Source of the DNA: Desulfobulbus propionicus
Lineage (GTDB): Bacteria; Desulfobacterota; Dissulfuribacteria; Dissulfuribacterales; DYOW01
Assembly: GCA_020720325.1 (NCBI GenBank)
Contig: DYOW01000014.1
Span: forward strand, 1 to 37,962
DNA length: 37,962 bases
Direction: 5' to 3'
A program made the translations under genes and the position numbers. Of this stretch, positions 22,982-29,662 are shown piece after piece. The notes under the pieces were generated by a model that worked only from the letters and a program-made list of their open reading frames with translations, ran no database searches and was not told the origin of the DNA. Position 1 is the stretch's first letter. Every line of letters begins with the position of its first letter.

Positions 22982-25810
22982 TTATTCCTTTAATTTATTT
23001 AATTTTTCTTTGGCAATTAAATTATTCGGTAATTTATTCAGAACTGTTTCGTAAGCATATTTTGCCGCATCAGTAAAACCTGCCATGAAATAAGCATCAC
23101 CAAGTTTTATAAATAAGTCATACTTTTGTGGCATTGCTTTCAGGCAATTTTCATAAGCAATAATAGCCTCATTAAAATTTTTCTGATATAAGAGCAAATC
23201 TCCAATTTCTTCCCATAAAATGGCAGTTTTAGGATTTAAGAGAACTGCGCTTTGTAAAAAAGCTATTCCTTCATAAAAATAACCATTTTCAAGAAAAAAT
23301 TTTGATTTTAATATTAAATAATTCTCATCAGATGGTTTTTTTTCCAATAATTTATCAAGAAACAGTAATATTTTATTATTCTGCCCGGATGCATAATAAA
23401 ATTTTAGAGCCAATTCATTATATTCAGGAAGCATTTCAGATAAAGGTTCCCATTGTGTTATCAGGTTCTCTGTTTTATGCTGATCATTATTCCCTGCTTG
23501 ATTAATAATTTCTTTATGTATTTCCCAGAGATTAAGAATTTGACTTGATATTGAGAAATCACTAAATAAATCAATTATAAAAATAAAACGTTTTGCCCAT
23601 TTATTAAATACAGTTGGAAAGCCCTCATTAAATCTGCCGAGCATCATTTTTTCTTGGTTTTCCATCTCATTTTTTGCAATGAAAACAAGTATATTATTTA
23701 AATAAGGATCATCCTGTGTTATCTGTTCCTTATATTTTTGGGCATTTTCATAGTCGTTCATCAATAAAAAATAAGCAGTTTTTAAATAATATAAAAAATT
23801 TTGAGGATAGTTGTTTTCTTCAAGAGAGATTATTATTTTATTTGCAAGATTTGCATAACCATTCATTAAGTATAATGCTGCCAATTCTTTCAGGATATCA
23901 ACATCCTTGTTTTTCCTGCTCTTTGTCAATAAATCCGTCTCTTTAATTAAAAAATCCTTTAGTTCATATAAGGTTTTTTCAAAAAGATTGATTTTTTCCT
24001 TTCTTAATAAATTAATAGATTTTTTTCTGTTAATCTCCGCGACTAACCACATTAAATAACCTTCTTTTTTTAAAATTTCTTCATTTTTAAAGCTTTCGGC
24101 TTCAAATTCAGCAAGATTTTTAAAGGTCAGTTCCATTACTGAAAAAGAAATATCAGGTATATTGTCAAGATAATTATTTAGCTTATCAAGTTCTAATAAT
24201 TTATTGAAAATAAATCTTGGCAAATGTTCATGACCGGAAATACTTAAATTTTTTTTGGCTAATTCTTTTATATCTTCGGAGATTTCATCTATTAATTTGA
24301 CAGATTTGTCAATTTTTTTATAAATTAGTTTTATTCTTGTAAGGATATCATCTGTTTTTCTAAAAATTGGATCAATTTTATAATTTTTTTTTTTAGGTAT
24401 ATTTTCAATTACATTCTTATTTATTAAATGATTTTCGTACCTCTTATTTAATTCATCTAATTTTATTCTTTCTGTTCCTTCTATATGAAGACCCTTTGAG
24501 GTGGCGTTAATGATATGTGTGTCTTGATTTTCATTTATGATTTTTTCAAAAAGTGTTTTGATAGATAAAAATTGCCTGTCAGTCCTTATAGTTGTTCCAT
24601 CAACTCCTTTAACATACAAATATTCCCTGTCATTTGTCAATTTGCTATGAAAAACAGTATGTTTGGAATGATCAATAGATTCTTCAGGAAAACCAAGGTC
24701 TTGTCCTAAAAGAATTACAGGATTAGCTCCGATATAACAGGCAAAAAGAAGGGAAAGATGCGCGGCAGACGACGCTGCCTGAATAGAATGGTAGGATTGT
24801 AGCGCATTAACAATCCACTGCTGAGGCAATTCATTTATAATTATTATTGAAAGCGCATTATAAGGCGCCCTTTTTATTATTAATGGACTTACCTTATTCA
24901 TTGCTATTAAGGTATATGGAAGTCTTTTCTCTATGGTTGGAAGAAATTTTTCAAAATTTTCATCCTGAAAATCAATGGTTGTGACAAAATCTGGTATAAT
25001 ATCATATTTTGAAAGCGCTGAGAGAGCGGAGTCAACTGATATTATGATTACCTTGTCCTGCATTTTTTTTAATATTTCCAAATCATTATCCAGTGATGGT
25101 CCTGCAGCCACACATACTGCCGGTAAATTCAAGGCAATATCTTTCAGGTTTTCAACAGGTAAAATATGATTTAAAGGTTTTAGATTTTCGTATCTGTTTT
25201 TAAAAAAATAATCACCACATTTTGAAATTGTGCCGCCGTTTGCAGATATTAAATTGGCTATTTCATAAATTTTATTGTTAACTTTTTCAAACAGTTCTTT
25301 TTTATGGATAAAACCCGGAATATACTGTAACAAATGTATGTCATAAATAGACGCAAGCCTGAAAATATCCTGTTCAAATGCAAAATAATCAGGCTTACCT
25401 ATAAATATGCTTGTTTTTATAGTATTAAAAAGATCTGTTAAATCAATATGATGCAAAGCAAAAATAAAATGGTCAATCCAAGGTTCAATAATTACAATCT
25501 TACTTAATTTTGGACGTTTTTCCAGAATATAAAGCGGACCATAACCCAGTCCGTTTCCTGTAAATATTGCGACACCCCTGGAATCTTCAGGTATAACTCC
25601 AAGATGTTTCTGTGCATCTAATAAAGGATTTTCCCAATTATATGCCAATTTTTCGTTAAATGGCGTGTCAAACAAAAGATTTGCCATATTGTTTTTGGAA
25701 AACACAAGGGTTCCGGGAGGGTTATAATTTTTATATGATTTTATAAAATTATATAACTTAGGATCTTTTTTCTCTAGGGCTTTGAGATTTTTTTCGAAAA
25801 TAGATTCCAT
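22982..25810 (-). CDS. Maf-type flagellin glycosyltransferase (DUF115/MptE-like) with C-terminal TPRs
   Basis: LPAVCVAAGPSLDNDLEILKKMQDKVIIISVDSALSALSKYDIIPDFVTTIDFQ; GANPVILLGQDLGFPEESIDHSKH; TPRs at C-terminus. Confidence 0.9.
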   Translation of the reverse strand: MESIFEKNLKALEKKDPKLYNFIKSYKNYNPPGTLVFSKNNMANLLFDTPFNEKLAYNWENPLLDAQKHLGVIPEDSRGVAIFTGNGLGYGPLYILEKRPKLSKIVIIEPWIDHFIFALHHIDLTDLFNTIKTSIFIGKPDYFAFEQDIFRLASIYDIHLLQYIPGFIHKKELFEKVNNKIYEIANLISANGGTISKCGDYFFKNRYENLKPLNHILPVENLKDIALNLPAVCVAAGPSLDNDLEILKKMQDKVIIISVDSALSALSKYDIIPDFVTTIDFQDENFEKFLPTIEKRLPYTLIAMNKVSPLIIKRAPYNALSIIIINELPQQWIVNALQSYHSIQAASSAAHLSLLFACYIGANPVILLGQDLGFPEESIDHSKHTVFHSKLTNDREYLYVKGVDGTTIRTDRQFLSIKTLFEKIINENQDTHIINATSKGLHIEGTERIKLDELNKRYENHLINKNVIENIPKKKNYKIDPIFRKTDDILTRIKLIYKKIDKSVKLIDEISEDIKELAKKNLSISGHEHLPRFIFNKLLELDKLNNYLDNIPDISFSVMELTFKNLAEFEAESFKNEEILKKEGYLMWLVAEINRKKSINLLRKEKINLFEKTLYELKDFLIKETDLLTKSRKNKDVDILKELAALYLMNGYANLANKIIISLEENNYPQNFLYYLKTAYFLLMNDYENAQKYKEQITQDDPYLNNILVFIAKNEMENQEKMMLGRFNEGFPTVFNKWAKRFIFIIDLFSDFSISSQILNLWEIHKEIINQAGNNDQHKTENLITQWEPLSEMLPEYNELALKFYYASGQNNKILLFLDKLLEKKPSDENYLILKSKFFLENGYFYEGIAFLQSAVLLNPKTAILWEEIGDLLLYQKNFNEAIIAYENCLKAMPQKYDLFIKLGDAYFMAGFTDAAKYAYETVLNKLPNNLIAKEKLNKLKE

Positions 25811-25893: not shown

Positions 25894-25927
25894 ATCGTAG
25901 GGACAACCCTAGGGTTGTCCCTACGAT
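25894..25927. repeat. REP palindrome, copy 1
   Basis: Perfect 34-bp palindrome ATCGTAGGGACAACCCTAGGGTTGTCCCTACGAT. Confidence 0.9.
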
Positions 25928-25970: not shown

Positions 25971-26090
25971 GAGGCTGTCCAGCAAAGCCAAAAATCTACA
26001 TTTAACTAACTACATACAGACAAAAAACAACCTGATCGTAACTATATATGGTATGCCAAAATGATGATTTCATATTTGCAGGACAGCCTC
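25971..26090. mobile_element. MITE-like element, 120 bp, no ORF
   Basis: TIRs GAGGCTGTCCAGCAAA / TTTGCAGGACAGCCTC (15 of 16 match), flanked on both sides by GGTTA, consistent with a 5-bp target duplication. Confidence 0.8.
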
Positions 26091-26109: not shown

Positions 26110-26667
26110 TTATAAATCAATTTCATCATTACTATCTGCTACCCATTTTAATGGATTTAATCGGATATAATCCCTGATTTTTTGCAGTGATTCCTCGTCA
26201 CGAATAATGTGGTCGTAAAATGAACGTTGCCATAAAAATATAGATAATCCATTTATATGTATCAATTTGGACGATGTTGTTTTAAATGCATTTATTGTTT
26301 TGGATAATAAATTGTGGCGTCGATAATATACAGCATTATTTGTTTCCATATTACCCGTAGGGACAAACGTAGGGACAACCCTAGGGTTGTCCCTACAAGT
26401 ATCATTATTTTCTATTATTAAAATTCCATGAATATGATCCGGCATAACAATGTATTTATCCAATTTTATATAATCATATCGGTCTGCTAACCACAACCAT
26501 TGTTTTTCAACAATAGCGCCATATTCGTTTAATAGCATTTTCCCATTTAGGATTTCACAAAAAAAATGCTGTTTATCCTTTGTGCAAATGGTTATAAAAT
26601 ACCATCCGCATTTAGAATAATCATGTCCATTCATACGGTTATTTTTACGTTCTTTGTTACTGCTCAT
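26110..26667 (-). CDS. REP-associated tyrosine transposase (RAYT, Y1/TnpA_REP family)
   Basis: GWYFITICTKDKQHFF..KLDKYIVMPDHIHGILII (HUH); SFYDHIIRDEESLQKIRDYIRLNPLKW (catalytic Tyr region). Confidence 0.93.
   Translation of the reverse strand: MSSNKERKNNRMNGHDYSKCGWYFITICTKDKQHFFCEILNGKMLLNEYGAIVEKQWLWLADRYDYIKLDKYIVMPDHIHGILIIENNDTCRDNPRVVPTFVPTGNMETNNAVYYRRHNLLSKTINAFKTTSSKLIHINGLSIFLWQRSFYDHIIRDEESLQKIRDYIRLNPLKWVADSNDEIDL
26353..26397. repeat. REP unit, copy 2, inside the RAYT coding sequence
   Basis: ACCCGTAGGGACAAACGTAGGGACAACCCTAGGGTTGTCCCTACA; core 28-bp palindrome 26369-26396. Confidence 0.9.
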
Positions 26668-26753: not shown

Positions 26754-26803
26754 ACCCGTAGGGACAACCCTAGGGTTGTCCCTACGTTTGTCCCTACGGG
26801 TAT
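26754..26803. repeat. REP unit, copy 3
   Basis: ACCCGTAGGGACAACCCTAGGGTTGTCCCTACGTTTGTCCCTACGGGTA; inverted relative to copy 2 on the + strand. Confidence 0.9.
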
Positions 26804-27262: not shown

Positions 27263-29662
27263 ATGATTAATGTTACAGCGCTAAACGCCCAATTCCAATA
27301 TTCCGTAAACGTGGAATCTTTTTCTGCATCCAATGCAAGACTTTCATCACAGAGTCGTATCAACAGCTCAGCAGACGATGCGTCAGGACTTGCCATCGCA
27401 ACCAGCCTTAATGTTCAGTCCGCTGGTCTCTCACAGGCTATCAAAAATGCAACCAGCGCCGTGTCTGTTATTTCGATTGCTGATAAAGCTTTAAATGAAA
27501 CTGTTGCCAAGCTTACGACAATAAAACAAAAAGCAATCCAGGCTGCTTCTGATGAACAAACCCTTGACTCCAGGAAAAAAATTCAGGCTGATATCAACAA
27601 ACTCGTCGCACAAATTAACAATATAGCCAGAACCACAGCATATAACGGATTAAAACTTCTTTCAGGAGAGTTTACAAACAAACAGTTCCAGGTTGGCGCT
27701 TACAGCGGTGAGACAGTTGGCGTTAATATTGACTCTACGGAAGCTACAAAAGTCGGACATCTTACCACAGCAGACCTCGTTGTTGACCAGGCTGCGGTTG
27801 GCGGTGAGACAAGATTAAGCATTTACAGCGCAAACCAGAACGTATGGGTTGATATACAATCAGTCAAGCTTGCATATGATAACTCATCTAACAACAGCAT
27901 TGGCGCTCTTGCTAATGCAATCAATAAAGTTGCCGTAAGCACAGGCGTCACTGCCCAGGCTATTGTTCAATCCACAAGCAACGCCGCAGTCGCCGCAGGA
28001 TCCACAGGTTCTGATTTCGCTGTTAACGGCGTTGTTGTTGGAGCAATCACTGTTGAGGCCAATGATGCTAATGGCGCTCTTGTTAATGCGATTAACCAGA
28101 AACAAAGCCAGACAGGCGTTACCGCTTCAGTTGACCAGGCGGGATTTCTTACCCTTAAATCTGACGGAAGGGCAATAAAGGTTACTGGTGAAACCGGCAC
28201 TACTCTTATGGGAAGCGACTTTACCACCCTCGGAAAGATTAAACTTTTCCAGACAGGCGCAAATGAAATAAGAATCAATGATGACGCTGATATGGTTTCT
28301 CTCAATACCACCGCAGCCATTACAACTGGTGGCGATGTAAATACTATTATTGATTCTACTATTGCCAAAGATAGCACAATAATATCTTCATCAATCCTTC
28401 AGGCTGGCTCTACCCTTGGTTTTGTTCTTGCAGGCTCAGGTCTTCGTCAGGCTGCTATCACCACAACACAGGATAGCACAATTCTTGCTGGTTCTGTTCT
28501 TGCAAGCACATCTTTAATTGAAGCAAACACAATTCTTGGCGGAACCGCAAGAGTAGAAGGTGATACAACCGTTGACACTGAAAGTCTTTTAAAGGCTGGA
28601 AGTATCCTTGAAAGCGGAGCTATCTTTACAGCAGGCACTACTTTGACCACAGGAATTAACACAACAACAGGAAGCCTTGCTGCTGGCACAACAATAGCTG
28701 CTGATGTCACACTTTCAGGCGACGCGACATTTCTTGCTGACATGCTTATTCAGGCAAATTCAGTAATACAAAGCAATTCTTCATTGCTTGCTGGTTCAAG
28801 AATAGATAAAGACCTTAATCTTGACAATCATATGACCTTAACGCAAACCATGAAGCTTCTTGCAGGCTCAAGGATAGGTGGTGTAGCTGCAACAAATCTT
28901 TTAGATGGTTCAACAATTGGTGGGGCTTTTACACTAAGTGGCGATGCTGTTGTCACAAGGGATATGTTATTAAAAACAGGTTCTGTGATTGAAAGCACTT
29001 CTGTTCTTGGCAAAGGCTCTACTATTGGTGGTTATACAAAGATTGATTCAGGTGGCGCTGCAACACTTGGCGGCGATATGACCCTTGCAGCTGGTTCTGT
29101 AATTGGTTCTGCTTCAACGATTAAGGCAGGAACAGTTCTTACTGATGATATCTGGGGCGCTGGCTCAATACTTTATCAAGCAGGGACCGTGTTGACAGGC
29201 GATCTGACCACATCTGGAACAAACAGAATAGACAATTCCATGACACTTAAAGCTAATTCTGTCTTAATGTCAGGCTCTACGCTTGCTCCAACAGCATCCG
29301 CAAGCACCGGAGCTTCCGCAACCACATCTATTGAAAACCTTGAAAGCTACAGACTTTCTGACATTAATGTTCTTTCTCAGGAAGATGCGCAGGTTGCGAT
29401 CTCCATTGTTGACGCTACGATAAGCGCCATAACCAAGGTTAAATCCGATCTTGGTTCTTCTCAGAACCAGCTTACAAGCACTATTGCAAACCTTGGAACA
29501 ACAAACACCAATGTTCTGTCAGCTTCAGCCACAATCACACAAATTAACTGGGCTGAAGAGTCCACAACCTTCTCACAGATGCAGGTGCTCAAGCAGGTGT
29601 CACAATACGCGTTGTCACAGGCAAATGCAGACTTCCAGAGCGTAATGAGATTCTTCCAGTAA
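27263..29662 (+). CDS. fliC: Flagellin with large repetitive central insert
   Basis: N-terminal RINSSADDASGLAIATSL and C-terminal ATITQINWAEESTTFSQMQVLKQVSQYALSQANADFQSVMRFF; RBS GGAGGATT; central hexapeptide repeats such as LLKAGSILESGAIFTAGTTL. Confidence 0.93.
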   Translation: MINVTALNAQFQYSVNVESFSASNARLSSQSRINSSADDASGLAIATSLNVQSAGLSQAIKNATSAVSVISIADKALNETVAKLTTIKQKAIQAASDEQTLDSRKKIQADINKLVAQINNIARTTAYNGLKLLSGEFTNKQFQVGAYSGETVGVNIDSTEATKVGHLTTADLVVDQAAVGGETRLSIYSANQNVWVDIQSVKLAYDNSSNNSIGALANAINKVAVSTGVTAQAIVQSTSNAAVAAGSTGSDFAVNGVVVGAITVEANDANGALVNAINQKQSQTGVTASVDQAGFLTLKSDGRAIKVTGETGTTLMGSDFTTLGKIKLFQTGANEIRINDDADMVSLNTTAAITTGGDVNTIIDSTIAKDSTIISSSILQAGSTLGFVLAGSGLRQAAITTTQDSTILAGSVLASTSLIEANTILGGTARVEGDTTVDTESLLKAGSILESGAIFTAGTTLTTGINTTTGSLAAGTTIAADVTLSGDATFLADMLIQANSVIQSNSSLLAGSRIDKDLNLDNHMTLTQTMKLLAGSRIGGVAATNLLDGSTIGGAFTLSGDAVVTRDMLLKTGSVIESTSVLGKGSTIGGYTKIDSGGAATLGGDMTLAAGSVIGSASTIKAGTVLTDDIWGAGSILYQAGTVLTGDLTTSGTNRIDNSMTLKANSVLMSGSTLAPTASASTGASATTSIENLESYRLSDINVLSQEDAQVAISIVDATISAITKVKSDLGSSQNQLTSTIANLGTTNTNVLSASATITQINWAEESTTFSQMQVLKQVSQYALSQANADFQSVMRFFQ

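Follow-up and report, generated by a model that had tools for sequence, protein, structure and literature searches.

An in-frame REP palindrome in a group-4 RAYT transposase gene and its counterparts in related transposases

Introduction

How does a REP palindrome come to be translated within a transposase gene whose flanks carry the same palindrome, and is it the DNA or the encoded peptide that is kept there? We addressed this question at a locus within a 37,962-nucleotide stretch of a Desulfobulbus propionicus draft genome (hereafter the window). The spread of REPs and the retention of single-copy RAYTs still pose open questions in the field, and a self-carried target at a fixed site, following the local REP, would provide a natural record of RAYT-REP pairing. 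A REP in frame between the HUH and Y motifs, in the beta3-alphaC region, has been reported as a feature of TnpAREP subclass 2.4 (Quentin et al. 2018, PMC6006769), which is mapped in the same study to RAYT group 4 of Bertels et al. 2017. Genes of this subclass encode the motifs NH[IFV]H, WQ and YIxNNP with a median HUH-Y distance of 88 residues, and are flanked by GT[AG]G REPs of either the canonical or the double-foot type (PMC6006769). These authors consider it possible that the protein is little affected by the in-gene REP insert (PMC6006769). In-frame REPs are also known from other genes (PMC3733652).

Results

The open reading frame at 26110-26667 on the minus strand comprises 185 open codons and represents an intact RAYT/TnpAREP gene (Table 1), in agreement with the identity proposed by a previous sequence-only reading of this DNA, which had also recognised the cognate GTAG hairpin in its frame. 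The product matches PF01797 with 23.5 bits (cut-off 23) and the NCBIfam model NF047646 (REP-associated tyrosine transposase) with 69.5 bits, which is below the model cut-off of 80. Within the PDB, only E. coli TnpAREP (4ER8) is related to it by sequence, and the same entry was the top structural match in a Foldseek search with the AlphaFold model of the protein. The catalytic and GTAG-recognition residues are intact, i.e. HIH (H78, H80), W146-Q147, R156, Y167 and N171. HIH, Y167 and N171 are invariant or nearly so in an alignment of 60 homologs, and W146, Q147 and R156 form the GTAG-recognition region, recognition of GTAG having been linked by Quentin et al. to residues found intact here (PMC6006769). 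A PF01797 family search of the own genome missed this gene, probably because the loop described below splits the match, and a protein search of the 2.44-Mb draft genome yielded no second RAYT. The gene is located between a Maf/MptE-like flagellin-glycosylation gene (22982-25810, minus strand) and a flagellin gene (27263-29662, plus strand), whose 799-residue product contains a long hexapeptide-like repeat region (LLAGSTI...) separating the flagellin N and C domains.

Table 1 Coordinates of the RAYT gene and of the REP sequences in and around it.
Feature	Position in window	Strand	Remarks
RAYT / TnpAREP gene	26110..26667	-	185 aa; PF01797, invariant columns, 4ER8, NF047646, Foldseek
In-frame REP-encoded segment, site B	26353..26397	-	residues 91-105 = CRDNPRVVPTFVPTG; beta3-alphaC loop
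Internal double-foot REP	26369..26396		28-bp perfect palindrome GTAGGGACAACCCTAGGGTTGTCCCTAC
Extra half-REP GTAGGGACA	26357..26365		adjoins internal REP; together = 45-bp unit of upstream flank
REP unit 5' of RAYT	26758..26802	+	palindrome 26758-26785 + half-REP 26789-26797; identical to internal unit over 45 bp, inverted
REP 3' of RAYT	25897..25924		28-bp palindrome only

Codons 91-105 consist of REP sequence, and the earlier coordinates and translation of this segment were exact to the base. In the AlphaFold model, the encoded residues lie between a strand (residues 78-85) and a helix (120-138), i.e. in the beta3-alphaC loop. The model is confident outside residues 90-119 and the two ends; the pLDDT falls below 50 at residues 94-101, within the REP-encoded stretch, and the loop is predicted to be disordered.

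The palindrome GTAGGGACAACCCTAGGGTTGTCCCTAC occurs in three exact copies in the window, one internal and one on either side of the gene, compared to none expected from 100 shuffles. The statement that the same DNA lies on both sides of the gene thus holds for the 28-bp palindrome; the complete 45-bp unit is found upstream only, where palindrome and half-repeat recur in opposite orientation to the internal unit, approximately 360 bp away. The gene itself contains no second internal REP. In the 2.44-Mb draft genome (204 contigs), no further copy of GTAGGGACAACCCTAGGGTTGTCCCTAC was found outside the locus within 3 mismatches and, since a second RAYT is missing as well, it is not a dispersed REP family in this genome. 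The genome contains further double-foot palindromes, each occurring once and with a different sequence, and no RAYT remnants were found next to those of loci L133, L134 and L136. One of them, GTAGGGAACAGGCATGCCTGTTCCCTAC, is present in a single intergenic copy (L133, 1501-1528; G000:C32:23670-23697) and is identical to the REP found within the RAYT genes of L034 and L095, two loci from Cloacimonadota. A 120-bp MITE-like element (25971-26090) lies in the interval that separates the downstream REP from the RAYT stop codon; it has 16-bp terminal inverted repeats, GAGGCTGTCC(A/T)GCAAA, and is bracketed by the 5-bp direct repeat GGTTA; inverted pairs of about 120 bp resembling it are found at G000:C103:4762-4880 and C179:2075-2192.

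Judged by these sequence features, the window RAYT fits TnpAREP subclass 2.4, or RAYT group 4, of which the in-gene REP is an already published hallmark. It shares with this subclass the HUH-Y1 core, WQ, an HUH-Y distance close to the median of 88 residues (89 from H78 to Y167), double-foot flanking REPs and the in-frame REP, but differs from it in DHIH and YIRLNP, each one residue off the respective motif, and in that its REP is not dispersed. Compared to E. coli TnpAREP (subclass 2.2, 4ER8), fold as well as catalytic and GTAG-recognition residues are alike, whereas the E. coli REPs are bulged and located outside the gene, and the enzyme lacks the HUH-Y insert (PMC6006769). A typical REP family has many dispersed intergenic copies, in contrast to the three copies of the window REP, which are confined to the locus. 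The Rickettsia RPEs and the intragenic GTAG REPs (PMC3733652) are likewise palindromic repeats in frame within ORFs, but these are scattered over unrelated genes, whereas the REP analysed here occupies a fixed site in its own transposase gene.

In order to place the internal REP in a wider context, relatives were collected from the genome's kin, from 85,000 species genomes, from Clostridia and from fetched paralogs, resulting in 185 distinct genes. A GTAG- or GTGG-footed hairpin was present in the site B loop of 151 of these genes, compared to 5 of 185 in the C-terminal part used as control. Among the first 106 genes, 57 had an inverted repeat with a score of at least 10 in the loop that connects the HUH strand to helix alphaC, compared to 9 for the best of all control windows. 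The sequences of these REPs vary between genes (GTAGAGACGCAAAATTTTGCGTCTCTAC, GTAGGGAACAGGCATGCCTGTTCCCTAC, GTAGGGGCGGTTCGCGAACCGCCCCTAC and others), and the translated peptides are quite different. The site-B REP of group-4 RAYTs is a family-wide, DNA-level feature at a fixed site. The frequency of 151/185 rules out a one-off insertion, and the earlier suggestion of an insertion peculiar to this gene had to be abandoned, as the large majority of group-4 RAYTs have a site-B REP and this has been published (PMC6006769). The expectation that relatives without the REP lack exactly this segment was borne out: the REP-less genes L041, L060, L094 and L105 have a shorter linker there, of roughly 7-25 residues. 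On a tree of 178 genes, the fewest changes were 32 for site B and 22 for site A (see below); this tree is based on 133 columns with many unresolved forks and does not settle between ancestral presence and repeated gain. Genomes with a RAYT match contain double-foot palindromes more frequently than others (38/68 versus 21/130, odds ratio 6.6, p = 1.3e-8). In two genes, L048 and L082, a third place for an in-frame REP was observed past helix alphaC, in the C-terminal part (QGEKSFAPT and GHGTPCPYK).

We then asked whether DNA or peptide is kept at site B. In a set of 22 different internal REPs of 28 bp, 99.4% of the cells were paired compared to 73.7% in shuffles, a percentage that is partly given by construction, as the set was chosen as hairpins, the unbiased figure being the above 151/185; two-sided changes numbered 86 versus 22.7 in shuffles. 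The REPs in plus orientation are read in phase 0 in 51 cases, in phase 1 in 14 and never in the phase that reads TAG. In 45 of the 151 genes, the internal REP matched the own flanks in at least 15 of 16 bases, where 1.0 would be expected from the flanks of other loci; in most relatives, the flanks contain no close copy over a distance of about 1.5 kb. The stems vary from gene to gene without losing their pairing, they match the flanks of their own gene, and they are translated in two phases; hence it is the DNA and not the peptide that is kept. The opposite pattern, in which the protein segment would be conserved without the palindrome, is contradicted, as the palindrome is kept and both peptide and reading phase vary. 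A chance origin of the internal REP was ruled out by the exact triple palindrome (none in shuffles), by the excess of loop over control hairpins and by the match to the own flanks.

Hairpin matches elsewhere in the gene were initially taken as background, an interpretation that was dropped when they turned out to mark a genuine second site. This site A carries a second footed REP in 52 relatives, mostly Clostridia, and is located about 50 residues ahead of site B, where a beta-hairpin turns. In the paired genes, the REP at site A is always in plus and the one at site B always in minus orientation. Inspection of the sequences revealed that both orientations would be open in frame, so the constant inversion is not forced by translation. 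The A-B match score was 0.82 within and 0.17 between genes, the observed value being reached by none of 100000 permutations, and 16 pairs are exactly identical. Identical or near-identical inverted in-frame pairs are found in L112, L074, L111, L083, L096, L099 and L110, among others. In all 52 relatives, the spacer is about 150 bp or less and the GTAG feet are outermost. To judge from the sequences, the pair is a REPIN arrangement inside an ORF, with the HUH codons as spacer: the outermost GTAG feet are shared with REPINs/BIMEs, whereas the location inside the transposase ORF and the HUH-coding spacer are not, and the window gene has site B only. The intragenic inverted pair may be new, although Figure S10 of Quentin et al. 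or Bertels et al. 2017 may already show it. In Sporobacter termitidis (L112), the REP of the intragenic pair has approximately 33 copies genome-wide. An ORF test of these dispersed REPs returned spurious long frames in GC-rich DNA.

Discussion

We are confident that the window contains a small REPtron of subclass 2.4/group 4, consisting of an intact RAYT, double-foot REPs in the flanks and the same REP in the loop. This confidence concerns identity and anatomy. For the renewal of the internal REP, by RAYT action or by recombination with neighbouring copies, we see about equal reason to believe and to doubt. In such a scenario, the in-frame REP would have been present early in the family and since then kept or refreshed, its sequence following the local REP. 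The RAYT could refresh it by cleaving GTAG-footed hairpins as single strands and transferring the strand; alternatively, the flanking copies could recombine with the internal one. The REP would persist because the loop tolerates about 15 extra residues. The identity of the internal and upstream units over 45 bp suggests that one was recently copied from the other, and present-day REP mobilisation is not visible in a genome without a dispersed REP population.

A serious, albeit less probable, alternative is that the internal REP functions as a target of its own RAYT, in that putative binding of the RAYT to its own gene (as single-stranded DNA) or mRNA limits expression, or that the REP serves as a permanent recognition site in cis. 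The fixed site, the high frequency among the relatives and the pairing preserved despite sequence turnover would agree with this, as would the 52 genes with two constantly inverted REPs matched within the gene and the paired REPtron of S. termitidis with its dispersed copies of the same REP. However, REP-less genes exist (L060, L062, L105), so such a target is not essential, and renewal by copying gives the same pattern.

We consider it improbable that the internal REP is a neutral relic, i.e. an ancient REP simply inherited in a tolerant loop with neither function nor renewal. The loop is predicted to be disordered and is peripheral (PMC6006769), and other genes tolerate in-frame REPs as well (PMC3733652), but the protein cores are only about 35-45% identical, so that an unmaintained 28-bp palindrome should have decayed, whereas the stems still pair after changes on both sides, and their sequence agrees with that of the local flanks. 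Selection of the loop peptide with an incidental palindrome has next to no probability and is in practice refuted by the phase and flank data: although the segment is translated in frame and a few peptide patterns recur, e.g. VGAxLxPAPT, palindromes of one and the same class, translated in different phases, give unrelated peptides (CRDNPRVVPT, VETQNLASLQ, VGATHASPL, CRGGSRTAPT), and identical DNA lies in non-coding flanks.

Beyond the preferred reading of a REPtron with a possibly renewed internal REP, we regard as rather unlikely the idea that the internal REP is a permanent, selected, self-carried target co-evolving with the enzyme, which in Clostridia would form a complete REPIN around the HUH segment. 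The enzyme could then excise its own catalytic part and leave a double-foot REP, which is what the remnant L257 looks like. In this RAYT remnant (331-680), the whole HUH-coding A-B segment is gone and the double-foot REP GTAGGGGACGATGAAGGCATCGTCCCCTAC forms the junction of the remaining N- and C-terminal parts, and a stop is present in the gene as well. A central deletion has been proposed as the origin of double-foot REPs (Quentin et al. 2018, PMC6006769), and L257 is one example of it. The Clostridial pairs together with this collapse make a concrete case for an origin that these authors only suggested. REP-guided deletion is not the rule, as other remnants differ from L257: in L258 and L270 the HUH part is missing but no REP marks the junction, and L259 (405-640, minus strand) and L261 (385-620, plus strand) are RAYT N-terminal fragments ending at REP A. 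According to our own reading of the sequence, the latter two fragments, from two genomes, immediately precede the ribosome-binding site of a gene for a der-like GTPase.
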